Origin: an uncultured Ignavibacteriales bacterium
GTDB taxonomy: Bacteria; Bacteroidota; Ignavibacteria; Ignavibacteriales; Melioribacteraceae
Assembly (NCBI GenBank): GCA_947311785.1
Contig: CAMZLW010000008.1
Coordinates: 1-35,322, forward strand
DNA: 35,322 bases
Reading direction: 5' to 3'
The stretch's first letter is position 1; the number at the start of each line of letters is the position of its first letter. Position numbers and translations under genes: made by a program. Under the pieces are notes generated by a model. The model made no database searches, was not told where the DNA came from, and saw nothing but the letters and a program-made list of their open reading frames with translations. Shown piece by piece: positions 5,041 through 26,160 of this stretch.

Positions 5041-6438
5041 TTATTGTCCAGGCTTAATTTTCTTTTTTTCTAACCAAGTTACAACTTCCCATTTTTTTGT
5101 ATCAGGGAAAAATGGTGCAACAAATCTTTGAACACGTTCATCGTAATCTTGTACAAAGCGGTATCCTTCGTACGGACCAGAAGAGTGGTAGTGTGCAGTA
5201 ACTCTTACCGTTTTAGATGTAATTCCACCCAGAATTTTCCAACTAGCAAGGTGGTGATCGTTAGTAACCAAGTTGGCATCGGGACCTACGTTACCGTTAA
5301 GTGCAAACATTGTTGCTTGTGTAGTAATATCGTTATGCCTTGTGTCGCTATTATATTGTAGCCTTATATTTTCTTCGGCAACTAAGCCTAGCATATCATC
5401 GGGCAGTGGATAGGTTGATGGATCGTCGTTATAGCTATAAACTATATCATCTGTTTGATAAATTGTGCCACATCCAGACTTACCACGCTTACTTGCAACA
5501 ACTGTTGCCTGCCCATTTAGTACCCCTTTTACAAACACATTCCCTCGTTCAACAAAAATCATCCCATTTGGCGATAATGTTGTGAGTGGAACAGTAGATT
5601 CGGCAGACCAACTACCAGCACCAATTTTTTGTTGGAATTTAACATCGCCAGTTGCCAAAAATTCGAGCCTAACTTGAGTTTGTTGATTAGTGTTTGTAGT
5701 ATCCGTAAATACTCTACCGTTAGAAACCGCAGCAGCGTGCATGCCAGTAGTATCAAATTGTAGTGGAATATCAACTCCAGTATTGTAACCACCTTGAAAT
5801 TCGGGAGGTGGGGGATTATTGTACGTTGTTAATCCATTTTGCGAAGTTACTTTTCCTGTAAAAACTGGTGAACCCCAAGTTTTAAGAACACCTTGTGCAT
5901 GGAATGGACCGCTGAAAGTATCGCCTGTAGCTGGAATTGCTGTAATTTGATTATAAAAATTTCCATACTTTGCAAAAGAACTTGGTCTTAAAACAATAAC
6001 TACTTCATTTTCTAAAATATCTTTATCGGGCATTGATGCAGTAATTGGTGTAACACCATTAATGTGATAACGCGATTGTGCGTATATTGCAACTAGTTTG
6101 TTCAAAAATGGATTTTCAACTTCATCTCCGTTTGGAAGGGTTAATACTGTATCTGAAGATGTAGGAACAGTTGATGTTCTAATTGTTTTAATGGTATAAT
6201 CGCCACCATTAAATTGAACTTTTTCATAGTTATTATTATCTGTCCAGTTTTTATCCAAAAAAAGTTTGTTTGCGGCAATGTTTGCAGCACTAACTGCAAT
6301 GTTATACGATTGTGCATTGGCAATATACTCCGACACATTATCAATTGTTCTAGTTGAAAGAGAGTTATATCTATGCCCAAACATCAAAAAAATAGTACTG
6401 AAAGCTAATACTAATAAAATTGCTCCTTTTCCACCCAT
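5041..6438 (-). CDS. PilX/DUF4900-like pilin-type protein
   Basis: A 465-residue protein starting Met-Gly-Gly-Lys-Gly, then one hydrophobic helix (about residues 5-20), then a long soluble region. The helix-to-head transition (IANAQSYNIAVSAANIAANKLF) resembles PilX-type minor pilins. Residues ~150-330 carry the look of DUF4900: GPFHAQGVLKTWGSPVFTGK, then a FVERGNVFVKGVLNG stretch, then IYQTDDIVY and DDMLGLVAEENIRL. DUF4900 proteins often sit with type IV pilus genes. The head is predicted to be beta-rich. There is no standard pilin leader; if a prepilin peptidase acts, the leader is just Met-Gly. It is the last gene of a three-gene operon, nine bases after the preceding stop, with GGAG eight bases before the ATG. 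Confidence 0.6.
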   Translation of the reverse strand: MGGKGAILLVLAFSTIFLMFGHRYNSLSTRTIDNVSEYIANAQSYNIAVSAANIAANKLFLDKNWTDNNNYEKVQFNGGDYTIKTIRTSTVPTSSDTVLTLPNGDEVENPFLNKLVAIYAQSRYHINGVTPITASMPDKDILENEVVIVLRPSSFAKYGNFYNQITAIPATGDTFSGPFHAQGVLKTWGSPVFTGKVTSQNGLTTYNNPPPPEFQGGYNTGVDIPLQFDTTGMHAAAVSNGRVFTDTTNTNQQTQVRLEFLATGDVKFQQKIGAGSWSAESTVPLTTLSPNGMIFVERGNVFVKGVLNGQATVVASKRGKSGCGTIYQTDDIVYSYNDDPSTYPLPDDMLGLVAEENIRLQYNSDTRHNDITTQATMFALNGNVGPDANLVTNDHHLASWKILGGITSKTVRVTAHYHSSGPYEGYRFVQDYDERVQRFVAPFFPDTKKWEVVTWLEKKKIKPGQ

Positions 6439-6447
6439 GATAAACTC

Positions 6448-7032
6448 CTATCTTTTATTCCTATTTCTGGATGACATTCTAATTTGTCTCCATGCAGTTT
6501 TCGAGTATGTTGTATCGTAGCCGTATGCATCTTCTATTTCTATATCAATTTGTATAGTTTCAATATTGCCTAACCCAACTGTTACTGGGGTTGTAATGGT
6601 ATCTCCAAAAATAGTAAAGTATGATAATTCAAATTTTGTAATTCCCATATTGGAAGATAATGGAGTACTGCCGTTTACACTTCTGTATAATAATCTGTCT
6701 TTAGGATTTGGGGTGTTAGGTAGTTCGCTTGCAGGGCCTATTGTATAGTTAATAGTGTCTCCATCAACCAAAAAAGAGATTGATGTGCTATCGGCTAAAG
6801 TAATTGCAGGAGCGGAAGGGTCGGCATTAGCCCAATCGGAGGTATATCCCATTTGTCTAAAATCGAATTCAATTAATTTAACTACATCAACAAGGTTATT
6901 TTGTAAAACTGCATCGCCAGTAAAAATATACGAATTTCGCACACTTGCATCGTTTAACCTAAGCAAAATCATAAGTAGTAAGCCACCTATAACGGTAGAA
7001 CCTAAAATATCTAAAAGTGTACTAAATCCCAT
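6448..7032 (-). CDS. PilW-like minor-pilin-type protein
   Basis: A 194-residue protein. The N-terminus MGFSTLLDILGSTVIGGLLL resembles a pilin start (Gly, then Phe, then an acidic residue near position 5-6, here Asp, then a hydrophobic helix). The next part reads LQNNLVDVVKLIEFDFRQMGY, closely recalling the PilW pattern in which a conserved D-[IF]-RQ-A/M-GY follows the first helix. The remainder is a beta-rich head ending in an Arg/Lys tail. Classical pilins have Glu at +5, so this protein is divergent. A GAGG ribosome site precedes the ATG, and the gene is nine bases from both neighbours in the operon. Confidence 0.6.
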   Translation of the reverse strand: MGFSTLLDILGSTVIGGLLLMILLRLNDASVRNSYIFTGDAVLQNNLVDVVKLIEFDFRQMGYTSDWANADPSAPAITLADSTSISFLVDGDTINYTIGPASELPNTPNPKDRLLYRSVNGSTPLSSNMGITKFELSYFTIFGDTITTPVTVGLGNIETIQIDIEIEDAYGYDTTYSKTAWRQIRMSSRNRNKR

Positions 7033-7041
7033 TATTTCCTC

Positions 7042-7587
7042 TTAAAAAGCAAAATTACTTTGAATAACCGACATAATAATTGTATCAGGAGTAGCTTTGT
7101 AGGTAGTGTTAGCCATTACTTTGGATGTAATTTTTACAATCAATTTTTTATGCCAAGTTTTACTGGCAACATAAACACTTGGATTATTTGAATTTACATA
7201 CCCAACTTGGCAGTTAACATCAAAATAATCTGAAAACATACCACGAAAAGGATTTCGTGAAATTAAAGTATCTTGAGTGTTAAAGCTTAATCCGTTAAAA
7301 TCATCAAAATCATTAAATGTCTTATAGGTCTCTCCAGTTTCTGGACCTAAAGTGGAGGAAAGATCGCTCAAGTTAGTAATTACAACCGTTGTATCTACAG
7401 AATATTCATCAAAAGCTTTGCCAATAGCTTCTTCAATAATTGATGCAGCCACAGAAATGCCTTGCAGTTTAACCTTAGATTCTAAAAGAACATTATCTGT
7501 TAATAGAAATCCGTTAGTAACCCTAAGAACCACTAGTGAAAGTAACACTAATGCAGCTAAAGTTATCATCATTTGTCCAGTTCCCAT
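7042..7587 (-). CDS. Pilin-like protein with Met-Gly start, first gene of the operon
   Basis: A 181-residue protein. MGTGQ is followed by a hydrophobic helix (about residues 6-26) and a soluble domain with VASIIEEAIGKAFDEYS, then alternating strands. It shares the Met-Gly plus hydrophobic-helix layout with the two downstream genes, which is why I group it with them. It lacks the Glu-5 of classical type IV pilins and has no other family signature I recognise. It begins the operon facing the intergenic region that also precedes the giant-protein gene on the other strand. It could be a major or minor pilin-like subunit, or simply a small anchored protein. Confidence 0.5.
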   Translation of the reverse strand: MGTGQMMITLAALVLLSLVVLRVTNGFLLTDNVLLESKVKLQGISVAASIIEEAIGKAFDEYSVDTTVVITNLSDLSSTLGPETGETYKTFNDFDDFNGLSFNTQDTLISRNPFRGMFSDYFDVNCQVGYVNSNNPSVYVASKTWHKKLIVKITSKVMANTTYKATPDTIIMSVIQSNFAF

Positions 7588-7941
7588 CTCACAATCTCAT
7601 TGTTTAATGTAAGAGACTATCAATTATCGTGCTAAACATATTATAGGTTTTCTACTACTAATTACAGAGTAATTTTCAATTTCAATTATCAAAATCTTCC
7701 TAAATATTAAAGATATCGGAAAATAATTTTGAGGAATAACAATTATCTACTGGCTACAGAAAGACTTTTGGTTTTTAACATAAGTTTAAAAGTAGATGTG
7801 GTAAAAACTAGATGTAATTTTTACAAGTTTGCAGGAAAATATTTCTGATTGGGATTTTTAATAACGCATTATCTTGTGTTATGCAAAGCCTTCAATCCGA
7901 TTTAAAACAAAGAAGCTGCTAATACGCGAATAAAAGCAATC

Positions 7942-7961
7942 CGTGAATTAGTGGCTTTTCT
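7942..7961 (+). repeat. Dispersed intergenic phrase, copy 1
   Basis: CGTGAATTAGTGGCTTTTCT here closely matches CGTGAATTGGTGGCTATCT at 30110-30128. Fifteen of the first 16 bases are identical, and both lie in non-coding sequence. This looks like a short repeat family scattered between genes. Confidence 0.5.
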
Positions 7962-7999
7962 ATTCTAAAATGTGCTTTTTCATAAAAGCGATATATCTT

Positions 8000-8025
8000 C
8001 AATTCTCAATTCTCAATTCTCAATT
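8000..8025 (+). repeat. 7-base tandem repeat (CAATTCT)
   Basis: CAATTCT occurs three times in a row (8000-8020), followed by the partial copy CAATT. It lies about 185 bases upstream of the giant-protein start. It could vary in copy number by slippage. Confidence 0.8.
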
Positions 8026-8207
8026 AGTTCCTTGTGTCCTAAATCACTATTTTATTGTATCACATCAATATGGGATTGATATTCAAAAATCATTGTTATA
8101 ACTTGCTATTGTAAACGAATATATAAAGTTTAAAATATTAAACAGTGATGGTTTTACTAATGAAAAAAAATAAAAAACATTTAATAATAGATAATGGACT
8201 AAATAAA

Positions 8208-11200
8208 ATGAGACGTATCATATTTATGTTATTTCTAACTTTTAGCTCACTCTTTTCGCAAGATCCTAATTGGAACTCATCAATCATCTTCCCACAATAT
8301 CCTTCTCCATATTTTTCCGATTGGGAAAGGAATCCTAATATTGGAACTTTCACTTTAAATTACTTTGGTACTGCTCCAGTGGAGTTTTACTTTGAAGTAA
8401 TAGTAAATGTGGATGGATACGGTGAAGCCATTAAAGGGCGAACTGCAATGAGGGAGTATTTGTCGGGACCTCAGATGCAGGTATTGTCGTTTAATGATAT
8501 TTCAGATTGGGAGAGTACAACATATAATAAAGATTTAGAGCGTATTGTTGCCCAAAGTGGGAAACTGCCCGAATCTACTTATTCTATCTGTGTTACTACA
8601 CATGCAAAGGATGGAACTCCACTAACAGATGCATGCATAGATTTTGATATTGCACTACCAAATCCTCCACAATTAATATCACCAGATAATGAAGGCTCAA
8701 TTGAAATTGCACAACCAACTTTAATGTGGAACCCTGTTTCAACCCCACCTGAAATAGTAGTTTACTACCAACTTAAAATTGTTGAAATGCTTGATGGACA
8801 GTCAGCATATAGAGCTATAGAAGCAAACATTCCTGTAGTTGAAACAGAAATACCAGTTGAGAATTTGTATGTATATCGTTTGGATGATTATCCACTTAAA
8901 CAAAACCATTCATACGCTTGGCAAGTTCAAGCCACAAATAGTGAAGGAGTTCCTGTTTCTACTAACGAAGGTTTTTCAGAAATATGGCAGTTTACTTATG
9001 GAAGTCCTGCGGGTGAGTTAGGAATTGATACGCTTGTTCTAATTGAAGACTTTGCATATTTGTTTGATTTAAATCAGCTAAACATTACTGATAACAACTC
9101 ATTTTTAAACCTTGATGGTTCTTGCAGAATGTTGCTTAAAGGTCTAGATGGTGTTGATAAATATGTTGATGTGTTTGCTCAAAACCTAATGTTGCAAAAG
9201 GATGAAGAAAGCTACGAAAAGCCCGTGTTCCTTGGGGGGAATGTTCTCGGCTCAATTTATGATGAACTATTTAGCAAAGATATTACGGGAGAATTTTTCA
9301 AACCGACTGAGTTAGAGTTTACTCCTCCAAATCAATTTAATATTGGTGGAAATTTTTATCTTGGCGAGCAAGTTGACCTTCCGTTAAATGGAAAGTTAAG
9401 TTACATTGATGGAGAATTATCGGGCGAACTATTGCTAATGGGCGATGCAGCTTCACCAGTTTTTGGGCTTGGTGATGATTCGTTTAAACTGAATATCACT
9501 TCGCTATCACTATCTTATCCAAGTATTGAAACAAATTTACAAGGTGGTTTAACAGTCTTTGGAACTCCATCTGCTTGTAATGTTGATAAAATTAATCTTA
9601 AAAAAGATGGCACATATAATGCAAAAATTTCTTGCGACATAAATCAAGAAATTGCTATGCTACAAGGTTCATCTCTTTTTGTTTTAAATGTAAATAGTGT
9701 TGAGGGGGGTATAAAAGGAAATTTGCTAACCGATGAAATTGATTATAAAGTTGTAGTTAACGGTGGCTTAAACTTTAATGTAAATCCAGAGAATGCTTTT
9801 GGTGCTGATGTCGTTTTTGAATTAATGCCAAATAAATTTAACTTAATTTCTTTTGAGCCAACTGCCGATGTTGATGCCTCTGTTATAGATTTTGGCTGGG
9901 TTAAATGGGATATGCAAAATATTAGATTGAATAATTTGGAATATCAAAATAGCAATTGGGACTTTAATTTGGCAATGGATATAGATTTATCGTTCCCAGA
10001 TTTTACAGATGAAAAACTTCCTACAATTTACAATATTGCATTTACTCCAAACGGATTTGAATTCCCTAACATAAAATTCAACAATTTCTCAATTCCAAAT
10101 ATAGATTTCAAAGCATTTGAACTTGAACTCTACGGAATTTCAATTCCTAAGTTTACTTTCGATTTAAGGCAATACACACCAGGTTCTATTGCTCAAATGG
10201 CTTTTGCATGGAATGTGAAATTCAGTATGCCAAATCTTCCAAACGGAACAGATGAAAAATTTAAATTTCCAAAATGGGATTTAAAAGCAAGTATAAATAA
10301 TGGAAATTTTAATGTTGAATTACCAAAAATAAATTTCCCAAATCCAAATGGGGTTAATATACCTATGCCAGGTGGGGCAAAATTTGTGGTTAATACTTTT
10401 GAAGGAGTATTAAATACAAATTACAATGGTTCGCTAATGAGCTTTTTGCCCGATGTAAAAATTGGTGGCGAACTCACCTTACCTGAAGCACTACAATGTA
10501 CTGGCAAAAAAGGAAGTCTAAAATTAGAATCTGCAATTACACTTAATGGCAACGGAAGTATTACTGGCATTATTGAGGATGTAGTTCCCACATGCCCTAT
10601 AAACATTGGGCTTGCTTCACTTTATATGAAAAAATCTAAAATAGAATTTAAAAATGAAGACGGACAAAAAATATATTTAGATGGAAAAGCCGGGATTAAA
10701 TTTACATCCAATCCTAACGAAAAAGAGGTTGGTGCAATATCTGTTATTTACGAAGTTATAAATAATAAAGTAGTAAAAGCAGAAGGGGAGATAAACGAAA
10801 ATTTCACTTGGGATTTAGTGGGCGATAATCCAACATTTTCGTTTGGAATAGAGGAAGCACAAATTAAAGAAGGAAAACTAATTATTGATGGTCGTTCTGA
10901 GTTGGAACTTAGCAAAGGGGAAAAACTCGGAGTTACTTTTGATAAGTTCACAATAGATTTAGACCAATACAGAGTTGAAGATGGAAGAGTAATTTTTGAC
11001 GATACTTTTGCAATGGTTATTAACGGCATTGAAAATGATGAAGTAAACTTTAAGGCTGTCAGTAAGGGCGATATACCCGAAAGCGAAAATTATCTTTACT
11101 ACGAATTGCCCGAAAAAATTTCACTCGATAAAAATGGTTTTACAATTCAAGGTAAAAGTAAAGCTCTACTAAAACATCAAGGAAAAAAACTTGGCGATTT

Positions 11201-14200
11201 AACAACCGAATTTAGTAATGACTTTGCATTCTCGTTAAAGCCATTCAAGGTTGCAAAAGGTAAATGCGATATTTTTTATAAGGAAGATAGAGTTGCATAT
11301 TTTAATGCCGATGGCTTTTTCCCTGACCCAACATATTTCTTAAATCGCGTTGTACCCGATAGAATTCCTTTGCCAACATTGGAGATTGCATATCTTCAAA
11401 TTAAACGCGATGATAATTTGTTAATTGATTTAAGAACAGAAGGGAACTCAACCCGCTTTAGTACAAGAGATGGAGAGCCAGTAGAATTAGTATTCCCATC
11501 TATGCAATTCGATTTACCAGAAGCTCCAAAAATACTTGTAGATTTTGATATTTCAATTGATGATGTAACAGGCGAAGTTACCGATGGATTTATTCGTGGA
11601 GTAATTCCCGAAGAGAGCATTCCTTCATTCGATTTATCTCGTGTTGGAATTCCCTACACAATCTACTCGGTTTACTACGGCAACATTGATGGAATTAATA
11701 AATTCCGTTTAACAGGAAAAGCAAAACTATTTGATACCGAAGTTGCTTGCCACGATTCAATGACATTAACACTTTCGCAAAATGGAATTCTTGAAGGGAA
11801 TGTTGCTTGTGATGTTGAAAAAATTATTCCTTTAATTCCTGATAGCGACAAACTAAATTTACACATCAATACTGTTTCGGGTAGGTTTAATGCGGACTTG
11901 CTGAATGTTGCCCGTAACTTCGATTTTGAGTTACAGTTAGATTCCGATGTACGTTTTAATTTCAACGAAAATGAATCGTGGGGCGTTTGGACTTTGCTCG
12001 GGTTAGATTTTGACGGCTTACAGCTTCTTGATTCTAGAATAGATGATGTAGCAATTCCTAAAATAGATTTGGAGCATTTTAAAATAGGAATAGAAAATTT
12101 AAATCTTGGAAGATTAGAATATAATTCTACTCCGGATGCTGATGGCAACAGCGGTTGGGATTTTGAATTTGGAATGGATTTGGATTTAGAGTTCCCAGAA
12201 CTTGGAATGGAAATTCCTAACATTCCTAATGTAATATTAAACAGAACCGGCTTTCACACAATGAACAGAATTTCTGTTCCCTCCTTCCCTGATAGTTTGG
12301 CTTTTGAATTTGAAGGCATTCAATTAAAACCACTTGCTTTCCGTATGCCTCGCTTAAACTTTAACTGGTTTAACCCAATGGGAGGTGGCTATGGCAGTGA
12401 TTGGAATTTTGATATCGATTTTGAAATTAATTTTCCAAATATGGAAAGTAGCTCAGGCGAAATGCGTTACCCACATTTAACTATGCTTGATGCAAGTTTC
12501 TTAAACGGAATGATTATAGGAAATGTTGAACCAATAAATTTTGATTTAGGTGATGGCTTAAAATTAAACTTTGGCGATGGCTTTGGTTTTTCTGTAACTG
12601 AAATATCAGGCGGTCTCTTTGATGATAATGGTTCGCAAGGTGTTGGTTTCAATTTTAATGGTCATCTGGATTTACCCGAATATATGCGTTGCGATGGTGA
12701 AGAGACTTCGGTTGACTTAACCGACATTTCATTTTCGTTAGATAGCAGAGGACACATTGCCGGCGTTGTGGATAATTTTGTTCCTCGTTGCCCAATAGAT
12801 TTAGGCTTTGGTCATTTTGTTGTTACTTCTTCTTCAATCAATTTTTCTGTTGCCGATTCTGGTCAAGTTGCAATACTCGATATGACTGGCGACTTGGTTA
12901 TTGATACTGGCGATGGTAACACAGTTACGGCAAATGGTGTTCTGCAAATGAATCTATTGACCGGAGAAATTATTGATGGCTCAATAACTATTGAAGAACA
13001 ATTTGTTTGGGCAATTCCAAATGATAAGCCAGTACTTCGTTTTACAATTAACAGAGCTGTACTCGATATGGATGGCTTAACAATAGATGGCGATAGTGAA
13101 TTGTTATTGCCTGGCGGACAAACAAGAAATGCACATTTCAGAAATTTTAAGTTCGATTACAGAAAATATAAAGTAAAAAGTGGTAGCCTCGAAATTGATG
13201 CAGATTTTGCCATTAAATTTGCTATGCAAGATGGCGAAATAGTTTGGACTGCAATTCCAGCAGATGAGCCATTAACCGAAAATCAAACTGCTAAGATTGG
13301 ATTTACATCTAACCTTACTTTGGATGTTAATGGCTTATCCGTAGGGGGAGAAGCAGTTGCAGCAATACGTTGGGATGATGACCCCGCACATCAGTTTGGT
13401 AATTTGTTAATTAGATATACAAACGATTTCAAATTTTCACTCCGCCCATTTATGGTTTCGGAAGGACATGCCGATTTAATACACGTGCAAGGTGGTGCCG
13501 AAACTGTTATTGCAACACTATCACATGATGGATTAAACCTTGGAGATATTTTTGGAATACTCCCTCTGCCCGAAATTATTCCGTTGCCAACAAGAGATAT
13601 TGCATATCTGCGAATTAAAAACGGAGACAATGTTTTAGTTCAATCGGAAGTAGTTGATGGTAATTTTAGAATTATCTCTACAGCAGAGAACCCTGCTGCA
13701 TTAGTTATTCCTTCACTTAAACAAGACGGTACTCCTGTAGATTCAATAGATGCAATATTTGATATTGTAATTAGTCCTACAGCACAAATTGTTGAAGGCG
13801 AAATAACTCTTGTAAAAGGAGATTCCCTCTCTATTATTAATTTGCGTGATAGAGGAATTCCTGCAGATATATTTAAACTAAATATCAAACGAATTGGTGG
13901 CGAAAATACGCTAACTGCCGATGCACAAGTTGATTTGCCCGGAATTATGGATGGACTTCCAATTAAAATGCGAAAACTTCGCTTTAACAGAAACGGACTT
14001 TCGGGCAATATCGATTTAGGAATTTATTCCGAAGTGTATTTGCTTGCCAATAATTGCCCTAACAACGAGTTACCTTCATTGGGCAATGCAGATTTAGGAA
14101 CTCAAGCAATAATAACGCTTGAGGGTGTTGATGTTTCTTTTGGCGATAACAATTCGGTTGGATTCTCCGGTAAATTTGTTCCACTTATGTTTGGTGGCAA

Positions 14201-17200: not shown

Positions 17201-20200
17201 TGATCCAAGTATGAATGTTGATGAAGATCTCGCTAACCAAAACAAAAGTAATCTAAATAATGGAATTGCTTCAATAATTGCATACAGAAATCAGGTTAAT
17301 GATGAATATGAAAAATTGAATGATAACATTAATATTTTAGAAACAGCACTTCGTGGTAGAAATGGAAATTCTGGTGCAGAAGGCTTTTCAAATTCCTATA
17401 CAAATTTAATTACCGAAGTTAATAGAACATATTTGCACGAGTATTTATATTACAAAAGAACACATACATGGGCATCTTCTATGCATTTTCAATTGATTAG
17501 TAAATATGGAATTGTTGTAAATGTTATGAATGCTAAAGCAGAGAACCTTTATAACAGAGGTTCGGTAGGGTATCTAATTTTACGAGAAATAAATGTAAAA
17601 AGAGTTGAAGCTATTGCAAAACTGAGAGGCGACGACGAAGCTGCAGCGATAGCAGAAGGAAGTACTGAAAGAAGTGCATGGAACTCTAATGCTTCTTTAT
17701 CGGAGGAGGCTCGCAGAGAGTTTGCCATTCGGCAATCTGTAGATATTGGAAAGGCTTTATGGTACAGAATTTCAATTAACGGATTAAGTTCGCTTATAGA
17801 TTCTTCCAATGCAATAATTAGCACAAGGCAAAATGAGAAGAATGAGACCGTAGAGGCTATGGGAGAACTCCAAGCCGAGTTTACAACTAAAATGAATAGG
17901 ATATATGCTACACTTGCTAGTATGTCAGAAACAAAATATGATATTCTTTCTAAGCTAATCAAGTGGGAAGAAAATACATTTCATCTTGAGCTTAGAGATA
18001 TTTATGATATTCGTGGAGGAGTTGGTCTCTCTGGAAAAGCTGGAGCTTCTAGACTTTCAATATTGCGTTCAGAAAAATCACTATTGGAACAAAAAATGAC
18101 TGTTCCAGTTATTACTCAACTTATAACAAGAAACTTTGATAATGGAATGTACGCCATTAACAGAATTCGTTGGAATGTTTCTGGACCAAGAGCTAACAAA
18201 ACAACATATATGATAGATTATTCTAGTCGCCGACCAAATATTAGCCGTCAAGGATTTCAATCTGTAGGAAATAGAAAAATGATGTACCTTTTCTATTCAC
18301 CAACAATTGGTCAATCTACATTTGGTAGAACAAATTTTAGGTTAAAAGCAAGAAATGAAATTGGATATACAATTCATAGAAATCTTTCATTTACTCCAAC
18401 ATTCTCTAACATTGACGAAGATATTTACGCATATACTGTTAACGAAACAAGTTACGACGAAGATGTAACACCACCTACAATTAGGGAATATTTATCCTAT
18501 GCCTATATACGTCAAGATGTTGAAAATGAAGATGATGTATATAAATATTATGTTAGTGATAAGTCTAATATAACTGCAAGTTGGTATGGCATTGATAGGG
18601 AAAGTGGAATTCAAGAGTACAGATATAAACTTGTAAAAACCCAAGATCCAGAGAGAGAACTGACACAATTTGTCCTTAATAGTAGTGTTACAGGGAATAT
18701 GAGTGTTAACAATAATGTTGTTCAAAATGCGGGTAATTATGTTCAAAATGCAGGGCAAAATATGAGTGACGAAAATGATGGTGAAGTTCGAGCATTTCAA
18801 CCAGACGAACTTTGGATTCAGAATTATGGACGAAATGATGTAGTAATTAATGATTTAAATATGGAAGACAGAGATGTTTACCAGATATACGCAATAGCAA
18901 AAAATGGTGATGGTCTCTGGACAGAAGAACCAGCAGGAACTAAACAATATATAATTGCCGATTTAACACCACCAACCGCTCCTCGTAGGTTATCTCAACT
19001 TAGAAATCCGGAAATTACTGTTAATGATAGAATGAATGGTATAAATCAGGAAGTTGAATTACCCGCACCAGTTTATAACCCATACTATATGCAATTTTTC
19101 CCAATGTTGGATAACTCTGAAGCATCATTAACTTTTAGATATGGTGCTTCTACCGATGAGGAATCTGGAATAAGTGGATATGAAATATTTATTTCTAAAG
19201 TTGGTGATAATTCGGTAATTACCGATAGAATATATCGTGGTCCTGTTACTGGAAATTATATTACATTAAGCAATAATAGAGATAACATTCTTGACGGAAT
19301 TTTAAACTATGTTGATTCCTTTTATGTTGATATACGTGCTATAAACAAAGCTAAAAACCGTAGTGAGTTTTTAAGATATAAAATGCAGCCATTTGATGAT
19401 ACTCCACCAAGTAAACCAGAAGTTAACTTTGCATATTCGAATGATTATCAAAGAGCCTATATTGTTTTTGATACTCAATCAGTTGATGAACAATCTGGTA
19501 TTAAGTATTATGAAGTTGGTATTGGTAGTTCCTACTACAATGGCAATTTAACTTATGATGATTCTATCAGAATCTATCCGCAAGATATAATGTTGAACAA
19601 AACTGCATTATTACCAGTATTACCCGAAAGAACAAGAACCTGGTTTACTGTAAGGGCAGTAAATGGGCAAGGTGCTAGAGGTCAAGTTTGTAGAACAGGT
19701 TCATTCAAACAAGACGATTCACCACCTATCACACCAATAGTTGCTATTACAAAAAGTGTAGTTAGTGGTAGAGGTACATTCTTAAACCTATTGTTTGGAA
19801 ATGTTAGAGATTCTCAATCGGGGATAAGAAAAGTTGAGTATCAAATTTTAAAACAAGCTCCTAATAGTAATATTTGGTATTATGCTCGTAGATGGACTGA
19901 ATCTCCAAATAATCGTAGTCTAAGTCTTCTATTAAGTGCAATAAATGTTAACTTATCGCACAAAGTAAAAGTTAAAGTTAGAACAACAAATTATGTTGGT
20001 TTAGTCTCTGCTATTGGAGTGCAAGAGTACGTGTTAGATACAACACCTCCTATAACACCAGATGTAAATGTTTCGTATTCAAGTACAGTTAGAGACCATA
20101 GTAGCAATTTAAGTTTGTCGTTTGTTGTGGATGATCCTGAAACAGGTATTGAAAAAATTGAATATAAAGTAGCACAAGAGCAAAGGATGTTTGCAGGTGT

Positions 20201-20399
20201 TTCGGTAGCTGGAAGACCATCCTATAGAACCTATTATTTACCTGCAGTATGGCGAAATAATGGAACGAGTACATCAAAGAGGTTTACTTATTCTGAACTG
20301 GGGTATAATTCTGGAGATAGAATAAGAATTAGTATAAGAACAACAAATAGACGTGGCGTTGTATCACAAATAGGTACTAGAAATATTACATTACCTTAA
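8208..20399 (+). CDS. Giant secreted modular protein (4063 aa; TANFOR-like N-terminus, tandem 730-aa repeats, helical rod, Ig/FN3-like tail)
   Basis: The ATG at 8208 is chosen because a clean signal peptide starts there (MRRIIFMLFLTFSSLFSQ, residues 1-18). The same frame is open back to a GTG at 8145, but that start would bury the signal. Residues ~19-280 resemble the TANFOR-type N-terminal region: LPESTYSIC, NPPQLISPDN, then an Ig-like sandwich. Residues ~496-1220 and ~1221-1954 are tandem copies of one beta-rich unit, with more beta-rich sequence to ~2800. Residues ~2810-3300 are mostly helical and charged. From ~3310 come Ig/FN3-like modules marked by D-x-T/S-PP at 3419, 3585, 3730, 3836 and 3944. 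No T9SS C-terminal domain, LPXTG or autotransporter barrel is seen. It is the first gene of a four-gene run. The role is unknown; a surface fibre, adhesin or matrix protein is inferred. Confidence 0.85.
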   Translation: MRRIIFMLFLTFSSLFSQDPNWNSSIIFPQYPSPYFSDWERNPNIGTFTLNYFGTAPVEFYFEVIVNVDGYGEAIKGRTAMREYLSGPQMQVLSFNDISDWESTTYNKDLERIVAQSGKLPESTYSICVTTHAKDGTPLTDACIDFDIALPNPPQLISPDNEGSIEIAQPTLMWNPVSTPPEIVVYYQLKIVEMLDGQSAYRAIEANIPVVETEIPVENLYVYRLDDYPLKQNHSYAWQVQATNSEGVPVSTNEGFSEIWQFTYGSPAGELGIDTLVLIEDFAYLFDLNQLNITDNNSFLNLDGSCRMLLKGLDGVDKYVDVFAQNLMLQKDEESYEKPVFLGGNVLGSIYDELFSKDITGEFFKPTELEFTPPNQFNIGGNFYLGEQVDLPLNGKLSYIDGELSGELLLMGDAASPVFGLGDDSFKLNITSLSLSYPSIETNLQGGLTVFGTPSACNVDKINLKKDGTYNAKISCDINQEIAMLQGSSLFVLNVNSVEGGIKGNLLTDEIDYKVVVNGGLNFNVNPENAFGADVVFELMPNKFNLISFEPTADVDASVIDFGWVKWDMQNIRLNNLEYQNSNWDFNLAMDIDLSFPDFTDEKLPTIYNIAFTPNGFEFPNIKFNNFSIPNIDFKAFELELYGISIPKFTFDLRQYTPGSIAQMAFAWNVKFSMPNLPNGTDEKFKFPKWDLKASINNGNFNVELPKINFPNPNGVNIPMPGGAKFVVNTFEGVLNTNYNGSLMSFLPDVKIGGELTLPEALQCTGKKGSLKLESAITLNGNGSITGIIEDVVPTCPINIGLASLYMKKSKIEFKNEDGQKIYLDGKAGIKFTSNPNEKEVGAISVIYEVINNKVVKAEGEINENFTWDLVGDNPTFSFGIEEAQIKEGKLIIDGRSELELSKGEKLGVTFDKFTIDLDQYRVEDGRVIFDDTFAMVINGIENDEVNFKAVSKGDIPESENYLYYELPEKISLDKNGFTIQGKSKALLKHQGKKLGDLTTEFSNDFAFSLKPFKVAKGKCDIFYKEDRVAYFNADGFFPDPTYFLNRVVPDRIPLPTLEIAYLQIKRDDNLLIDLRTEGNSTRFSTRDGEPVELVFPSMQFDLPEAPKILVDFDISIDDVTGEVTDGFIRGVIPEESIPSFDLSRVGIPYTIYSVYYGNIDGINKFRLTGKAKLFDTEVACHDSMTLTLSQNGILEGNVACDVEKIIPLIPDSDKLNLHINTVSGRFNADLLNVARNFDFELQLDSDVRFNFNENESWGVWTLLGLDFDGLQLLDSRIDDVAIPKIDLEHFKIGIENLNLGRLEYNSTPDADGNSGWDFEFGMDLDLEFPELGMEIPNIPNVILNRTGFHTMNRISVPSFPDSLAFEFEGIQLKPLAFRMPRLNFNWFNPMGGGYGSDWNFDIDFEINFPNMESSSGEMRYPHLTMLDASFLNGMIIGNVEPINFDLGDGLKLNFGDGFGFSVTEISGGLFDDNGSQGVGFNFNGHLDLPEYMRCDGEETSVDLTDISFSLDSRGHIAGVVDNFVPRCPIDLGFGHFVVTSSSINFSVADSGQVAILDMTGDLVIDTGDGNTVTANGVLQMNLLTGEIIDGSITIEEQFVWAIPNDKPVLRFTINRAVLDMDGLTIDGDSELLLPGGQTRNAHFRNFKFDYRKYKVKSGSLEIDADFAIKFAMQDGEIVWTAIPADEPLTENQTAKIGFTSNLTLDVNGLSVGGEAVAAIRWDDDPAHQFGNLLIRYTNDFKFSLRPFMVSEGHADLIHVQGGAETVIATLSHDGLNLGDIFGILPLPEIIPLPTRDIAYLRIKNGDNVLVQSEVVDGNFRIISTAENPAALVIPSLKQDGTPVDSIDAIFDIVISPTAQIVEGEITLVKGDSLSIINLRDRGIPADIFKLNIKRIGGENTLTADAQVDLPGIMDGLPIKMRKLRFNRNGLSGNIDLGIYSEVYLLANNCPNNELPSLGNADLGTQAIITLEGVDVSFGDNNSVGFSGKFVPLMFGGNDAIDIQYAANWNNEERKFTFSFDFKDGEVFDFGIGTFTPTGIAGNPAMQLTLTEDDFELLISGLFESEQFGDDFSISIEGLKITKNNVSAEAISKPQAHPMEFELFKSQFRIFDKDRDHKAIRFTYNDNVLKLILNGDITLFGRDDKVAFSNLTIGTDGSFSIDEANFLNRDLSIIENYLALNNLGIVQEDNIYKLAVGGWIKLPEPVGNDTQFDFGFNIAPNGTISADQRIGNQIVFINESGHNIGGGDQSEYDFWKAKFDVTYLALDLNFDRIAQSAVKMNADIYWDNDRNKRVELGDNSTPGLTIPFNGNLTWGSASANGSIIDFEEDMFKIKISTIQLTSDRNNNLTFGIGGEFGLNFDAVEGGLGLSGFQFNKTGIVSVGTITKGSLSIEDVGSLELQDIGYSPDETTIQVNGGEMPGVNSGNATSSTQSITVNSYLSFGGKITIANFVTAGVERFLSYSTTNNGVTSNTLIVKNATFETDGFSGSMDLLYYSGGDDFLMRVGGSANFKGKSASMVGKIAKIRGDISFGLFLTFSTKIQVGPVTITEVGGGFFYRPTADDILTVKRVARVGTAEGNIEVQGGTFAIFLFGEAVIVDRVLIKGRVLLTVTDKQFMLDGRVILLNRDTEITGEAHLLVQWDPNFKAEGEITVDIDAARVVKGTGRVGFYVYSQNQWAIYGETDLKLFNYLESSSEFFVGNSGFMLGMSSSVDFDIWIIEVGAGIEVKVWYIKDKSWGAYAEAYVKAEILWGIAKAKGWLKCALIGSGGHTILYGQAGLRIRTFIKDWDGSAWAKIDNGRLSGGRGSDSDMDALIAEAAGQSAQAEEEMNDMKNSIENRVEAGVSFSNEDLEAAFTSLTEWGTKYKYGTPAERNAAEDFFAELRDIESLHFRFPFGIGNINYNPPGRERNLYTWIIENIYQGEEAPNLSGYNTQRRGVLEAIQSYDDNKNRLIPTLDEAMEVISSVENEVEQSADDPTKNTIFPTYSRDAEGNYTKLTDPSMNVDEDLANQNKSNLNNGIASIIAYRNQVNDEYEKLNDNINILETALRGRNGNSGAEGFSNSYTNLITEVNRTYLHEYLYYKRTHTWASSMHFQLISKYGIVVNVMNAKAENLYNRGSVGYLILREINVKRVEAIAKLRGDDEAAAIAEGSTERSAWNSNASLSEEARREFAIRQSVDIGKALWYRISINGLSSLIDSSNAIISTRQNEKNETVEAMGELQAEFTTKMNRIYATLASMSETKYDILSKLIKWEENTFHLELRDIYDIRGGVGLSGKAGASRLSILRSEKSLLEQKMTVPVITQLITRNFDNGMYAINRIRWNVSGPRANKTTYMIDYSSRRPNISRQGFQSVGNRKMMYLFYSPTIGQSTFGRTNFRLKARNEIGYTIHRNLSFTPTFSNIDEDIYAYTVNETSYDEDVTPPTIREYLSYAYIRQDVENEDDVYKYYVSDKSNITASWYGIDRESGIQEYRYKLVKTQDPERELTQFVLNSSVTGNMSVNNNVVQNAGNYVQNAGQNMSDENDGEVRAFQPDELWIQNYGRNDVVINDLNMEDRDVYQIYAIAKNGDGLWTEEPAGTKQYIIADLTPPTAPRRLSQLRNPEITVNDRMNGINQEVELPAPVYNPYYMQFFPMLDNSEASLTFRYGASTDEESGISGYEIFISKVGDNSVITDRIYRGPVTGNYITLSNNRDNILDGILNYVDSFYVDIRAINKAKNRSEFLRYKMQPFDDTPPSKPEVNFAYSNDYQRAYIVFDTQSVDEQSGIKYYEVGIGSSYYNGNLTYDDSIRIYPQDIMLNKTALLPVLPERTRTWFTVRAVNGQGARGQVCRTGSFKQDDSPPITPIVAITKSVVSGRGTFLNLLFGNVRDSQSGIRKVEYQILKQAPNSNIWYYARRWTESPNNRSLSLLLSAINVNLSHKVKVKVRTTNYVGLVSAIGVQEYVLDTTPPITPDVNVSYSSTVRDHSSNLSLSFVVDDPETGIEKIEYKVAQEQRMFAGVSVAGRPSYRTYYLPAVWRNNGTSTSKRFTYSELGYNSGDRIRISIRTTNRRGVVSQIGTRNITLP
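9693..11867 (+). repeat. Internal repeat unit 1 of the giant protein (~725 aa)
   Basis: Begins near VNSVEGG and matches unit 2 in order throughout. Paired landmarks are PEALQC (Cys764) with PEYMRC (Cys1495), SNDFAFSLKPFKV with TNDFKFSLRPFMV, and IPLPTLEIAYLQIK (1053) with IPLPTRDIAYLRIK (1791). Offsets are 724-738 residues. Boundaries are approximate. Confidence 0.8.
11868..14067 (+). repeat. Internal repeat unit 2 of the giant protein (~735 aa)
   Basis: Begins near INTVSGR and follows unit 1 directly. Cys1495 and Cys1528 (31-32 residues between them) correspond to Cys764 and Cys796 in unit 1. A second pair sits at each unit's leading boundary: Cys457/Cys476 and Cys1181/Cys1201. A degenerate third start follows at ~1940 (NTLTADAQVDLPG..), where the boundary pair is lost. 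Boundaries are approximate. Confidence 0.8.
18720..18761 (+). repeat. 21-base in-frame direct duplication
   Basis: GTTCAAAATGCGGG (18720) recurs as GTTCAAAATGCAGG (18741), giving VQNAG twice in the protein. It sits in a low-complexity Asn-rich loop within the C-terminal module region. Confidence 0.6.
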
Positions 20400-20502: not shown

Positions 20503-22464
20503 ATGAAAAAAACATATTTGATAATTTGGTTACTATTTTTATTGGTAATTTCATCAAATGCTCAAAAAAAGAGAGACTTTTTTACAATGGTTAAAGGTGG
20601 TGAATTAGCCATATTTTTAACCGAGCCTCTTGCTGCAAACGAGGTTTACAATGTATATCGTAAATCGGATACAGGTTTTATCTTGTTAAATAAAGATGAG
20701 CCGATACGAGCAATCCTAAATCCTGCAGAGGCAAAAGTTGTTTTAGGTAAGGATTGGGATTTAATTTCCAATGCTGTGGATAGTGAAAATGATGTTGAAA
20801 TTACTAGGGCTATAAGGTCTAAAACCTTCCGTGGTGCTTTGCTCTCGCTGGTTAGCAATAATGCGGCTAAAGTTGCTGGCAGGTGGTTTTTGGATAAAAA
20901 TATTAAAAGAGGTAATTCATACACATACAAAATAATATTTGAAACTATTTCAGGAGAAAAAACAGATAGCCTTCAAAAAAATGTGAAAGCAATAGAGATA
21001 ATTCCTAATGCTCCTGATAATTTAGAATTAATTGCAGGCAATAAACAAATTAAATTAAAATGGAAATATCCTCAATGGAGTGGTGATTTTTCCGATATTG
21101 GTTTTACCTATAATGTATATAGAAAAAAAGGGAATGGTAAATTTGAAAAAGTAAACGAAAACATCATTATCCGTGATGATGCTTCAACACCAGAGTACGA
21201 TGACTTATGGCTTGATGAAGGAATAAAATATTCCTACAAAGTTACAATTTTAGACCCCATTGGTAACGAGAGTAAAACATCTAATATTGCAGAGATTCTT
21301 TTGTTGGATAAAACTCCACCCGCTATTGTTCGAAATGTTATGTCAGAAGCATATAGAAATGGAATGAAAATATCGTGGAATATGAATACAGAACTTGATG
21401 CTGTTAGTTACAATGTTTATCGTGCAAGAAGTTTAAAAGGACCATTTAAAAAAATAAATAGAACACCAATTGCTGTAGAGACTCCATTTTATATGGATAG
21501 CACAATTGTAGAAAAAAAACAATTTTTCTACACAATTACTGCATTGGATAAATCTGGTAACGAAGGAAAACAGAGTAACCCAAGTTCAACATATCTTGCA
21601 GATAACTTTCCACCCGATGCACCAACAAACTTAACCTACAAAGTTGTAAACAACAAAGTTGAGTTAAGTTGGATAAATGCTAAAGCAAAAGATATTCAGG
21701 GATATAATATTTACAAAAGTGAACGCCCAACAGGAATGAAATCACGATTAAATTTAACTCCGTTCAAAGGAAATATATTTAGTGATACGGGTGAAAAGGA
21801 TAAAGGCTTTGGGTACGGAGCAAAATTCTACTACACAATTACTGCACAAGATAGCTCACGAAATGAGAGCGATTCATTAAATATTATTGTTTATGTACCA
21901 GATGTTGAAGCCCCATTCCCTCCGGTTAATTTTAATGTTGTTACTAAAGGGGATTATCTTTTTGTCTCTTGTGGAATGTCTCCTTCGGTTGATGCAGATA
22001 AATATTTGCTATACCGCTCAACAACAAATAATAAAAAAATAAAACTATCGGAATTTAGCAAAGCTCCATTTAGTTTTAAAGATACAACAATTGTTAAAGG
22101 TGCCAACTATATTTATTCTGTTTCGGTAATAGATACAGCAGGAAATATTAGTAAAACATCAGTTCAAGATACAATTATGTTTGCCGATTTTTCTCCGCCA
22201 CCTGCACCACGTAATGTAAAAGCAAAAGCAGTAAATGGAAAAGTAGAATTAACCTGGGTTAAATCAATTGATTTTGATATGGCAGGATATAATGTGTATC
22301 GTTCCGATTACCCAACGGGAACATTTGAATTATTAAATAAAAATATTATTACTAAAACTAATTACGCTGATAATAATGGAAACAAAAAATCTTATTACAG
22401 AATTAAAGCTATCGATACCTCAGGAAATGAAAGTAAATATGATAAAACAGTTTCTCCGAAATAA
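20503..22464 (+). CDS. Secreted protein with five fibronectin type III modules
   Basis: A 653-residue protein. Residues 1-20 are a signal peptide ending in SSNAQ. An N-terminal region (~21-165) of unrecognised type comes first; it contains VYRKSDTGF and a short helical part. Five FN3 modules of about 100 residues follow, starting near 167, 269, 367, 467 and 561. Each opens with a P-rich linker (DKTPPA, DNFPPDAP, VEAPFPP, ADFSPPPAP) and carries a VELSW-type B strand, a YNVYR/YNIYKS-type C strand and a late Y-x-I/V core. These features are typical of bacterial extracellular FN3 repeats in adhesins and polysaccharide-binding proteins. The linkers resemble the D-x-TPP joints at the end of the preceding giant protein. 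The TPR gene starts inside its last codons, so the two are co-translated. Confidence 0.8.
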   Translation: MKKTYLIIWLLFLLVISSNAQKKRDFFTMVKGGELAIFLTEPLAANEVYNVYRKSDTGFILLNKDEPIRAILNPAEAKVVLGKDWDLISNAVDSENDVEITRAIRSKTFRGALLSLVSNNAAKVAGRWFLDKNIKRGNSYTYKIIFETISGEKTDSLQKNVKAIEIIPNAPDNLELIAGNKQIKLKWKYPQWSGDFSDIGFTYNVYRKKGNGKFEKVNENIIIRDDASTPEYDDLWLDEGIKYSYKVTILDPIGNESKTSNIAEILLLDKTPPAIVRNVMSEAYRNGMKISWNMNTELDAVSYNVYRARSLKGPFKKINRTPIAVETPFYMDSTIVEKKQFFYTITALDKSGNEGKQSNPSSTYLADNFPPDAPTNLTYKVVNNKVELSWINAKAKDIQGYNIYKSERPTGMKSRLNLTPFKGNIFSDTGEKDKGFGYGAKFYYTITAQDSSRNESDSLNIIVYVPDVEAPFPPVNFNVVTKGDYLFVSCGMSPSVDADKYLLYRSTTNNKKIKLSEFSKAPFSFKDTTIVKGANYIYSVSVIDTAGNISKTSVQDTIMFADFSPPPAPRNVKAKAVNGKVELTWVKSIDFDMAGYNVYRSDYPTGTFELLNKNIITKTNYADNNGNKKSYYRIKAIDTSGNESKYDKTVSPK

Positions 22465-24445
22465 TCTAATTGTTTTACTGCTGATTTTATCAGCTAATAC
22501 ATTAGTTGCTCAAGACGTTTTTACAAACGGTGTTATTGAATATAATAATAAAAACTACAAAGATGCAGCCAAAGCATTTGAACAATTTATATCTACTAAT
22601 CCGTTTGAGGTTGCTCCGTACGAGTATCTTGTTAATTGCTATATCGAATTATCCGAAAATGATAAAGCTATTGAGTTGATAAAAAAAACGAATAAGAAAT
22701 TTCCTACAAATACAAATCTTAAAAAAACTCTGGGTAAGCTATACGTAAATAAAATGCAATTTAGTAAAGCCGAAAAAACATTTCTTGAAGTATTAAAAAT
22801 AGAACCGACAAACCAAGAGATAAAAGGATATTTAGCGAAAATATATTTTAATATGGCAGTATTTGCATTCCAAAAAAATGATTTTAAAACTGTTATAAAA
22901 AAACTTGATACATCATTAAAGTACGATGATAATAACAAAGATGTATATGCACTAAAAGCAAATTCATTAATTCAGTTAAAGAAGTTTGAAGAAGCAAAAA
23001 AGGTTATTGCAAAAGGACTTAAAAAATTTCCGAACAATGACCAATTACTAATTGATAACTCTCTTATTCTTATTAGTCAAGAAAAATATAGTGAAGCAAT
23101 TACAAAGCTAAAGCCAGTTTGGAAACGTAACAAAAATAATTTGCAAATAGGGTTACAATTAGCACAGTTGTATAGGATAAAAAACAGAATAGAAGAAGCG
23201 TTTGCTATATACGATTCGTTATTAAAAAAATATCCTAAAGAAAGAAAAGTTTATGATGAAATGTTAGACTACTTTACTGCTACAGGAAAGTTGGAAGAAA
23301 AAAGAAAAATTTATAAAAAAATGGAAGAAGTATTTCCAAACGATAAAGAACTAACGCTTTCAAAAATTAAAACTTATGTTCTTGAAAATGAAGATTCCAC
23401 AGCAATAGCAGAGTATTTCCAATTTGTGAATAATAATCCCAAGCTATTAAAGGGCTATATCGAATTAGGAAAATTGTATAATAAAAAGGCAATGTATGAA
23501 GATGGCATTGCCTTGATGAACAAAGCACTAGCTAATAAGCAGAATCAAAAAGAAATATATTTTTACTTGGGTAAATTTTATAGTAAAAATAATCAGCTTA
23601 AATTATCTCTTGAAACATATTTAAAATATTCAAAATTAAAACCCAATGACTATCAAGCATATTATGAAATAGGGTCAATCTATTTGGAACAAAACCAATT
23701 AGATTTGGCAAAGCTAAATTTTGAAAAGGCTATAAAACTAAATAAGAATGATGCACTATCATTTGCAAAAATATCTAAAGTCCATAGGCTACAAGGGGAT
23801 AAAGAAAATGCCGAAAGATATTATGTGAAATCTTTCGTGAAAAATATAATAGCACTTCAGCAAACTCAACAAATGCTTTTGGGTAGCATTAACGAAACTA
23901 AAAACTTAGCCAAAGTTGAAATTGATGATGAAAGTGAAAATTTAGAATTGTTTCAAGACAATATTGATGAAGCAGATAAATATCTTGTTGCTAATTTATC
24001 GAACACTAAATATCTCGAAATGATTAATAGATTGTTAAAACACTATACCCAGTCTGCGTTGCTCCTTTATTATAAAGCACTATACTACGAACGAACTAAC
24101 AATTATAAACTGGCGTTGAAATATTATGAACGTGTAATTTCTAGAAGCTCAAAAGTAGAAAAAGCTCATATAAGAATGGCAGAAATTTATTATAAACAAG
24201 GAAACATAAAACAGACAATTCTTGCTTACAAAAGAGCATTGTCGCTTAGCAATAACCGAGAAATTTATAAAAGACTAACAGAATTGTACCGAGAAGATAA
24301 TAGGTTAAATACATTGTGTAACGAGTGGTTGAACATATATGCAGCTCAGCCAGATAATAAATTGTTGGAAGAGTACTTGATTATAGCCTTACACAAAGCG
24401 GGAAGAATAGAAGAGGCGAAAGAAATAATAAACAAAAGTGAATAA
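22439..24445 (+). CDS. Secreted/periplasmic TPR-repeat protein
   Basis: A 668-residue protein from the ATG at 22439. This start gives a clean signal peptide (MIKQFLRNNLIVLLLILSAN.. cleaved after LVAQ) and has AGGAAATGAAAG just upstream. A start at 22376 would add 21 polar residues before the signal. The gene overlaps the FN3 gene by 26 bases. The mature protein is an almost continuous array of about 15 tetratricopeptide-type helical pairs, e.g. APYEYLVNCYIELSENDKAI, QAYYEIGSIYLEQNQLDLAK and KAHIRMAEIYYKQGNIKQTI. A less regular acidic insert (VEIDDESENLELFQDNIDEAD) falls near residue 500. TPR arrays hold protein partners; given its neighbours, a scaffold or assembly role in the periplasm or at the outer membrane is inferred. 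Confidence 0.8.
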   Translation: MIKQFLRNNLIVLLLILSANTLVAQDVFTNGVIEYNNKNYKDAAKAFEQFISTNPFEVAPYEYLVNCYIELSENDKAIELIKKTNKKFPTNTNLKKTLGKLYVNKMQFSKAEKTFLEVLKIEPTNQEIKGYLAKIYFNMAVFAFQKNDFKTVIKKLDTSLKYDDNNKDVYALKANSLIQLKKFEEAKKVIAKGLKKFPNNDQLLIDNSLILISQEKYSEAITKLKPVWKRNKNNLQIGLQLAQLYRIKNRIEEAFAIYDSLLKKYPKERKVYDEMLDYFTATGKLEEKRKIYKKMEEVFPNDKELTLSKIKTYVLENEDSTAIAEYFQFVNNNPKLLKGYIELGKLYNKKAMYEDGIALMNKALANKQNQKEIYFYLGKFYSKNNQLKLSLETYLKYSKLKPNDYQAYYEIGSIYLEQNQLDLAKLNFEKAIKLNKNDALSFAKISKVHRLQGDKENAERYYVKSFVKNIIALQQTQQMLLGSINETKNLAKVEIDDESENLELFQDNIDEADKYLVANLSNTKYLEMINRLLKHYTQSALLLYYKALYYERTNNYKLALKYYERVISRSSKVEKAHIRMAEIYYKQGNIKQTILAYKRALSLSNNREIYKRLTELYREDNRLNTLCNEWLNIYAAQPDNKLLEEYLIIALHKAGRIEEAKEIINKSE

Positions 24446-24447
24446 GC

Positions 24448-26160
24448 ATGAAACTATCTTTACTAACTTACATAGTATTAATCCTATCTTTAAGTTTATC
24501 AATTGTAAACGGACAAGTAAAAGACAGCTCTGAAGTTGACCTAAGTATTAATAATCAACTCTCACAATATGTAGCACCCTCCATATTTTCTATCAGTGGA
24601 GACGCTGGAGCTTATGGAGAGTTGTATTCAACATCACGCGATGTAGCTCGCCGTCCGGGAGCAACTGGACGCTTGTATCTTCGCCCAACTTTTACATTCT
24701 TAAATAATTTTTCTATCTCGTTGGATTTATTTGTTTCAACAGAAGGTAACGATGCCCGTCAGCAGATAAATCGTTTTGCCCTACATCCAGAGTGGAGTTG
24801 GGGACAAGCCCACATTGGGGATTTTAACCACAAGTTTTCCGATTACTCATTGAATGGAATAAATATTAGAGGCGGTGGGGTAGAGATAAATCCGGGCTGG
24901 TTTCGCTTTCAAGTAATAGGCGGACAAACACGCCGAGCAATAACTGCTTCGCCTTACTCATCGGTTTATAGCCAAAATATGGGAGCCTTAAAAATAGGAA
25001 TAGGAAAAAAGGGGAAATCATTTTTTGATTTAAATATAATGCTGGCTCGTGATGATAGTAACTCGGTTGCCAAAAGCACATTTATAACAGATACTACTAG
25101 CACTGGAGGAAATACACAAGTAGGGATAACTCCACAAGAGAATTTACTTATTGGTTTTAACACAGACTTAAAAATAATTAAAAATATGCTACGCTTACGT
25201 GGAGAAGCCACAGCCTCACTATTTACGCACAATACATATTCAGATGAGGCAGATATAGATGACGTTCCAAGTTTTATGGATGGAATCTTTACGCTAAGAA
25301 ATTCCTCTAATGCTGATTTTGCTTATAAGGGAATATTGGATTTTAAGTATGACTTTTTTAATACATCACTAAAATATCAAGTAATCAATCCTGGATTTCG
25401 CTCGTTGGGTATGACTTCTGTAATAAATGATAAGCGAAAGTATGGAGCCAATATGGGCTTTAGATTATTCAAAAATGTTTTAATGGTTCAACTCCGCTAC
25501 GATGCCCAAAATGATAATTTACTTGACCAAAAGAAATTTACATTGGAAAGAAATACATTTGGTTTTAATGTTGTGGTTCGTCCCATCCAGAGTTTATCAA
25601 TAATGTTTAATGCAATACATAATAAAATGTTCAATGATTCGGTAAGTGATACCGTTAGGATTGATAGTAAAGTATCAACCTTTGCCACCAATGTATCGTA
25701 TCAATTTCCCGCTTTTGGCTTACGTAACTCAGCAATGTTGGGCTACTCACATCAAATTTCAACGAACTATAACTTTTACTTGGGCGGAGATAACGAAGTA
25801 ACAGTAAAGAACATATTCGGAAATATTAACACCACAATAAATTCAATGTGGTCGTTTGCTCCTGGCTTTACGGCAGTAATAATAGATACATGGACTGGAG
25901 TAACAAATCAAACACTTACCTTAAACTTACGAGTTAACGGAAGGTTCTTCAACTCGAAGTGGAACAATGCTTTAACAATGTCAATGTCTAACTCAGATTA
26001 CACAAAAGTGATGCAACTAAATTTACAAAGTGATTACCGCATTACTAGTTCCGATATGATAAAGTTGAAAGTCCGCTACTCCCTCACAAGTTACAATGCC
26101 AATAGCACAAACAACTTTTGGGAAAACATTGCAAGTGTTAGTTATGTGCATCGGTTGTAA
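24448..26160 (+). CDS. Predicted outer-membrane beta-barrel protein
   Basis: A 570-residue protein with a signal peptide (residues 1-23, ending IVNGQ). The body is built from many 9-12-residue alternating strands such as NFSISLDLFVST, FRFQVIGGQTRR, TLNLRVNGRFF and MIKLKVRYSLTSY, with short polar turns, which is typical of Gram-negative outer-membrane barrels. An N-terminal motif SGDAGAYGELYSTS..RDVARRPGATGRLYLRP stands out as a possible family signature. The C-terminus ends ..SVSYVHRL, without the usual final Phe. It starts two bases after the TPR stop, so it is tightly coupled to it. It may anchor or export the giant or FN3 protein. That role is inferred from position only, and I cannot assign a named family. 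Confidence 0.6.
   Translation: MKLSLLTYIVLILSLSLSIVNGQVKDSSEVDLSINNQLSQYVAPSIFSISGDAGAYGELYSTSRDVARRPGATGRLYLRPTFTFLNNFSISLDLFVSTEGNDARQQINRFALHPEWSWGQAHIGDFNHKFSDYSLNGINIRGGGVEINPGWFRFQVIGGQTRRAITASPYSSVYSQNMGALKIGIGKKGKSFFDLNIMLARDDSNSVAKSTFITDTTSTGGNTQVGITPQENLLIGFNTDLKIIKNMLRLRGEATASLFTHNTYSDEADIDDVPSFMDGIFTLRNSSNADFAYKGILDFKYDFFNTSLKYQVINPGFRSLGMTSVINDKRKYGANMGFRLFKNVLMVQLRYDAQNDNLLDQKKFTLERNTFGFNVVVRPIQSLSIMFNAIHNKMFNDSVSDTVRIDSKVSTFATNVSYQFPAFGLRNSAMLGYSHQISTNYNFYLGGDNEVTVKNIFGNINTTINSMWSFAPGFTAVIIDTWTGVTNQTLTLNLRVNGRFFNSKWNNALTMSMSNSDYTKVMQLNLQSDYRITSSDMIKLKVRYSLTSYNANSTNNFWENIASVSYVHRL

Follow-up and report, generated by a model that had tools for sequence, protein, structure and literature searches.

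The DNA analyzed here, referred to as the window, is a 35,322-nucleotide stretch that makes up contig C8 of an uncultured Ignavibacteriales genome (GCA_947311785.1; 2.85 Mb in 181 contigs) whose closest named relatives are Melioribacteraceae. Many bacteria related to the Bacteroidetes secrete proteins of very large size, among them known toxins. Four consecutive genes on the plus strand of the window encode a giant secreted protein, a fibronectin type III (FN3) repeat protein, a tetratricopeptide repeat (TPR) protein and a predicted outer-membrane β-barrel. Together with an optional TPR protein, the giant, the FN3 protein and the barrel form one conserved unit. The giant's N-terminal domain, which profile comparisons place on a remote branch of the TANFOR domain, nearly always has the barrel as its partner. 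The most far-reaching reading, to which we give a probability of about 0.45, is that these genes represent a previously unrecognized outer-membrane export or display system of Bacteroidota and Gemmatimonadota that operates independently of the type IX secretion system (T9SS). The TANFOR-type domain would then be the address by which giants and polymorphic toxins reach a dedicated barrel of some 26 strands, and an FN3 protein would help. Should the barrel be shown to export its cargo, this would be a new kind of system.

The N-terminal domain and the barrel are inherited as a unit

To count linkage, 296 genomes of the phylum were searched both with an N-terminal-domain profile (A4) and with a barrel profile (A5), and the 92 N-terminal-domain proteins of 900 residues or more were scored as giants. 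A barrel gene lies within 15 kb of 81 of the 92 giants, on the same strand in 81/81 cases (about 1.7 expected), and within 3 kb of 70. The linked loci span 36 genera and 22 families, and 67 loci from 29 genera and 20 families remain when the seed genomes are removed. In each of the ten genomes where a giant is unlinked, a barrel is encoded at another place, and the converse count finds 86 of 97 strong barrels linked to an N-terminal domain. Antisense ORFs masked genes in the ORF maps of some high-GC loci (L083, L086, L160 and L170), so counts taken from these maps are lower bounds.

The domain and the barrel also occur in a single polypeptide of about 870–1020 residues in nine genomes (G007, G037, G045, G053, G055, G034, G046, G221 and G239), and at L175–L177 the fusion protein is encoded together with an FN3 protein and another N-terminal-domain protein. 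Fusions were noted at L024, L025, L026, L027, L028 and L174–L178, and some of them cluster with FN3 proteins and additional proteins of TANFOR type. The distances between domains correlate with those between barrels (Spearman 0.72, reached in 0/2000 permutations), a correlation that shared ancestry alone could yield. More telling is G052, where one of three operons has its nearest match in the operon of G049, by domain (57%) as well as by barrel (57%), and not among its own paralogs. The system is inherited as a unit.

The order and strand of the four plus-strand genes are kept within the genus, family and order, except that the TPR gene is absent or inverted in some relatives, and conservation of the operon reaches beyond the order. 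Among 18 fully read loci, 14 have an FN3 gene beside the giant, and of the four that do not, two are incomplete. The TPR protein is accessory and belongs to some lineages only. Single loci depart from the common layout. At L068 a lone barrel gene lies between two giants that both have an FN3 gene of their own, and one barrel may serve two cargos there. The operon of L074, filed under Candidatus Zixiibacteriota, has a barrel of about 40% identity, and transfer or a misplaced bin is possible. In G032 (L049:15770-19000) an in-frame stop separates the N-terminus of the giant from the remainder, either as a sequencing error or in a decayed gene.

The giant protein and its relation to TANFOR toxins

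The giant gene occupies 8208–20399. The ATG at 8208 (MRRIIFMLFLTFSSLFSQ) was preferred over the GTG at 8145, which is probably not the start, because relatives start at the same place; the product then has 4063 residues. Its N-terminal TANFOR-type domain (8208–9104) is the sole part common to all cargo proteins. Two long all-β units follow, R1 (722 residues; 9444–11609) and its repeat R2 (801 residues; 11610–14012), which were detected by hhalign profile self-comparison at residues 434–1155 and 1156–1956 (numbering from 8145), mostly with 98–99% probability. AlphaFold2 predicts an all-β fold for the long unit R1 (pLDDT 86.1), and a search of the PDB with this model gave no clear match (best Z 5.4). 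Next come a middle β region (14013–16784), which is common to the Gemmatimonadetes giants (E 2e-91 to 2e-176 in L083, L084 and L086), a helical stretch, and immunoglobulin/FN3-like repeats at the C-terminus (18552–20399; about residues 3470–4084 in the self-comparison, numbered from 8145). No Pfam family matches any part of the giant, including its last 400 residues, and no toxin domain was recognized in it. No immunity gene was recognized either; the genes downstream of the giant are those for the FN3 protein, the TPR protein and the barrel. The window's giant may act as an adhesin or a scaffold. An assignment as an AsmA/TamB-like lipid bridge was rejected, its structural support being not above noise.

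Giants with the same complete architecture are also present in other Bacteroidota families (L157, L159, L160, L161, L166 and L170), at L082, and in three Gemmatimonadetes metagenome-assembled genomes (MAGs; L083, L084 and L086). These giants point to an ancient family of β-rich proteins of roughly 3500–6800 residues common to two phyla. The number of long units differs among them: the relative at L166 has 6423 residues and three such units.

Published work describes the TANFOR proteins (TIGR02542) as Bacteroidetes polymorphic toxins in whose gene neighborhoods FN3 genes are enriched (PMC7073777). The TIGR02542 model gave no match to the N-terminus of the giant at E values up to 10 and none elsewhere on contig C8. 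It was rejected as a direct marker, being too narrow and missing the whole branch to which the window belongs. A profile built from Ignavibacteria N-termini matches TIGR02542-positive proteins from six genomes (E 1e-20 to 1e-29), with which the sequences were aligned. Among the TIGR02542-positive loci read, an FN3 homolog of the window type is present in 6/6 (E 1e-64 to 1e-90) and a barrel homolog in 4/6 (E 1e-25 to 1e-74). Because the profile matches these proteins and their loci carry FN3 and barrel homologs, the window operon is a branch of the TANFOR-type loci, one whose cargo has no recognizable toxin. One cargo of this type, at L144, ends in a colicin/pyocin DNase domain (Col-Pyo_DNase, E 3e-42).

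The giant and the TANFOR toxins share a homologous N-terminal domain, a signal peptide, large size and an adjacent FN3 gene. The giant differs in being unmatched by TIGR02542, in lacking a recognized toxin or immunity gene and in being made of conserved β units, and a barrel partner has not been reported for the published TANFOR toxins. The locus had been put forward as undescribed. The term fits the barrel and the full-length giant; the N-terminal domain belongs to a published class, for which enrichment of an FN3 neighbor had been reported (PMC7073777). Searches of the open-access literature, with subscription papers outside the search, found no description of the giant, of giant proteins of Melioribacter or of the barrel. 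By the same literature the new elements are the barrel, the domain-barrel fusion, the family of giant β-rich proteins, the Ignavibacteria and Gemmatimonadota branches and the occurrence without T9SS; the TANFOR toxins and their FN3 neighbors are already known.

The barrel and a proposed route to the cell surface

The gene that closes the operon (24448–26160) encodes a predicted outer-membrane barrel. The AlphaFold2 model, made from 32 sequences, has about 26 strands (pLDDT 82.5). Its best match among solved structures is MtrB (PDB 6r2q_B; Z 19.1 over 443 residues, rmsd 5.6, 12% identity), and AlgE and ushers come next at Z of about 15. Pfam and NCBIfam hold no model for the family, and none of 27 family members has a Pfam match, the Omp85 barrel and POTRA domains of two-partner secretion included. 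A relationship to SprA, prompted by a likeness in motifs, was rejected because hhalign gave it a probability of 0.6% when the barrel was compared with aligned partial SprA sequences. Sequence searches of PHROGs and the PDB with the window proteins returned nothing usable.

The remaining partners lie between the giant and the barrel. The FN3-repeat protein (20503–22464) has its own conserved N-terminal part, and its homolog adjoins the giant in most loci; the TPR protein is encoded at 22439–24445. The FN3 stop at 22464 lies beyond the TPR ATG at 22439, a 26-base overlap, and the TPR gene ends at 24445, two bases before the barrel gene starts at 24448. This spacing had been noted in the initial annotation and was confirmed with the ATG at 22439. 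By inspection, all four plus-strand products carry a Sec-type signal peptide at the N-terminus, as had also been noted. The FN3 and TPR assignments are backed by Pfam, and the barrel assignment, made earlier from sequence, is borne out by the AlphaFold2 model and its structural matches.

In the proposed mechanism all four proteins would cross the inner membrane by the Sec route. The N-terminal TANFOR-type domain of the giant would then dock on its own dedicated outer-membrane barrel, a step in which the FN3 protein, and here also the TPR protein, may assist. The barrel would carry the giant to the cell surface or anchor it there without need for T9SS. One apparatus would thereby handle different cargos, a colicin-type DNase toxin in one case and β-rich giants of 3500–6800 residues in others, the window's among them. 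Given the observed linkage and fusion, we put barrel-dependent export or anchoring of TANFOR-type-domain proteins at even odds. An earlier suggestion that the barrel and the TPR protein may export or anchor the giant is retained for the barrel, which linkage and fusion make the best candidate, and is reduced to an accessory part in some lineages for the TPR protein.

Some observations weigh against this reading. The window's genome encodes SprA and 59 T9SS sorting domains, so T9SS is present here. The best structural match of the barrel is an electron-conduit porin, followed by ushers, and function does not follow from a common barrel shape. Elsewhere in this genome a related barrel is encoded beside FecR and a CHASE2 cyclase, which makes sensing a possible role as well.

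T9SS is the nearest comparison, as it exports proteins across the outer membrane in the same phylum and coexists with the operon in the window's genome. It is also the hypothesized export route of TANFOR proteins: over 95% of TANFOR genomes have T9SS, and CTD proteins are enriched near the TANFOR genes (PMC7073777). On that account T9SS would export the giant and other TANFOR-type proteins, with the barrel acting as no more than a surface anchor, a receptor or a partner for attachment. We regard this as unlikely, though it is the best placed of the rival explanations. None of the 59 sorting domains (Por_Secre_tail, PF18962) is on contig C8, hence none is in the giant, and the barrel is unrelated to SprA by profile. 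Furthermore, three Gemmatimonadetes MAGs encode giants of 4031–6807 residues with an FN3 protein and a barrel and have neither SprA nor any sorting domain; SprA was found in the other five genomes tested. Because these three genomes have the system and lack both T9SS marks, T9SS is not required for it there. Incompleteness of the MAGs is a caveat, but gaps hardly explain zero sorting domains compared with 48–59 in the T9SS-bearing genomes. T9SS is the published guess at how TANFOR polymorphic toxins leave the cell. The barrel is a specific, conserved candidate partner that is fused to the TANFOR-type domain in some genomes and occurs in others that lack T9SS, and naming it makes the way out directly testable.

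A role in sensing is less probable still. The barrel would act as an outer-membrane gate, the N-terminal-domain proteins as its periplasmic partners and the giant as a periplasm-spanning or surface sensor. This explanation draws on a paralogous cassette on contig C11 of the window's genome (L149:4293-10763) that joins a 364-residue TANFOR-type protein, FecR, a 798-residue barrel of the same superfamily and a CHASE2-cyclase, and that looks like an outer-membrane signaling module. G002 (L117) has these genes in the same order, and relatives commonly encode barrels of about 800 residues. However, FecR and the cyclase are absent from the giant operon, and a DNase toxin domain at the end of one cargo suits delivery better.

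There is slight reason to view the giant as a periplasmic or surface conduit for lipid or polymer built from its long β units, with the barrel as exit pore in a TamB/TamA-like operation. The all-β character of R1 and R2 speaks for it, as does a weak resemblance in structure to TamAB and apolipoprotein B (Z 4.7). The tool's own note, however, classes such a score as noise, no inner-membrane anchor was seen, and the N-terminal domain also carries unrelated passengers.

Other known systems resemble the operon in part. MtrB of the Mtr electron conduit is the best structural match of the window barrel, with no match in sequence family; the window operon has no cytochrome, and the CxxCH motif is absent from all four plus-strand proteins. 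Chaperone-usher pores (PapC/FimD) likewise are large barrels for surface proteins, but the operon has no chaperone or pilus subunit genes and the barrel has no Pfam usher match. Slam, or type XI secretion, also pairs TPR with a barrel for surface proteins. Here, in contrast, the TPR protein is separate and optional, the barrel is much larger, and the TPR_Slam match is generic and under the cut-off.

The pilin-like cassette and neighboring genes

The initial annotation had described seven genes in two divergent runs as one candidate surface-assembly locus, with three pilin-like proteins perhaps contributing a periplasmic pseudopilus or filament. The ORF coordinates agree with the seven genes and their two runs. 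The genes nevertheless form two units, and the pilin-like trio is not part of the giant system; the proposal of a single unit is supported for the giant, FN3, TPR and barrel genes. The trio is encoded on the minus strand (465 residues, 5041–6438; 194 residues, 6448–7032; 181 residues, 7042–7587) as a neighboring, unrelated cassette. A single machine made of trio and operon is very improbable: the two are divergent neighbors in the window's genome only, but they lie on different contigs in G001, G003, G004 and G032, and the largest trio member is present in 47 of 58 related genomes, many of them without the giant operon. Genes other than the trio stand upstream of the giant in G001, G003 and G004.

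The trio recurs as a cassette in relatives, with a second copy in the window's genome (L119), and represents an unnamed pseudopilin-like cassette of Ignavibacteria. No Pfam family matches the two small proteins, and the 465-residue protein has only a sub-threshold match to DUF4900. The window was said to show no standard machine, and indeed none is encoded in it; type IV pilus/type II secretion system (T4P/T2SS)-type ATPases, SprA and the sorting domains are encoded elsewhere in the genome. The linkage of pilin, ATPase and platform genes of a type IV pilus or pseudopilus locus is absent, as the ATPases and a T2SSF protein are on contig C121. Because they are encoded there, the trio could belong to the T4P/T2SS-type apparatus of that contig.

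A DUF5686 gene (2285–4705, minus strand), also outside the giant system, travels with the cassette in the same genus and adjoins the trio in G001 and G004. The trio proteins (window 5041-7587; L118; L119; L123) have very short leaders (MG...) and lack the usual Glu5, and at these loci the copies are often duplicated, divergent or in tandem, beside DUF5686.

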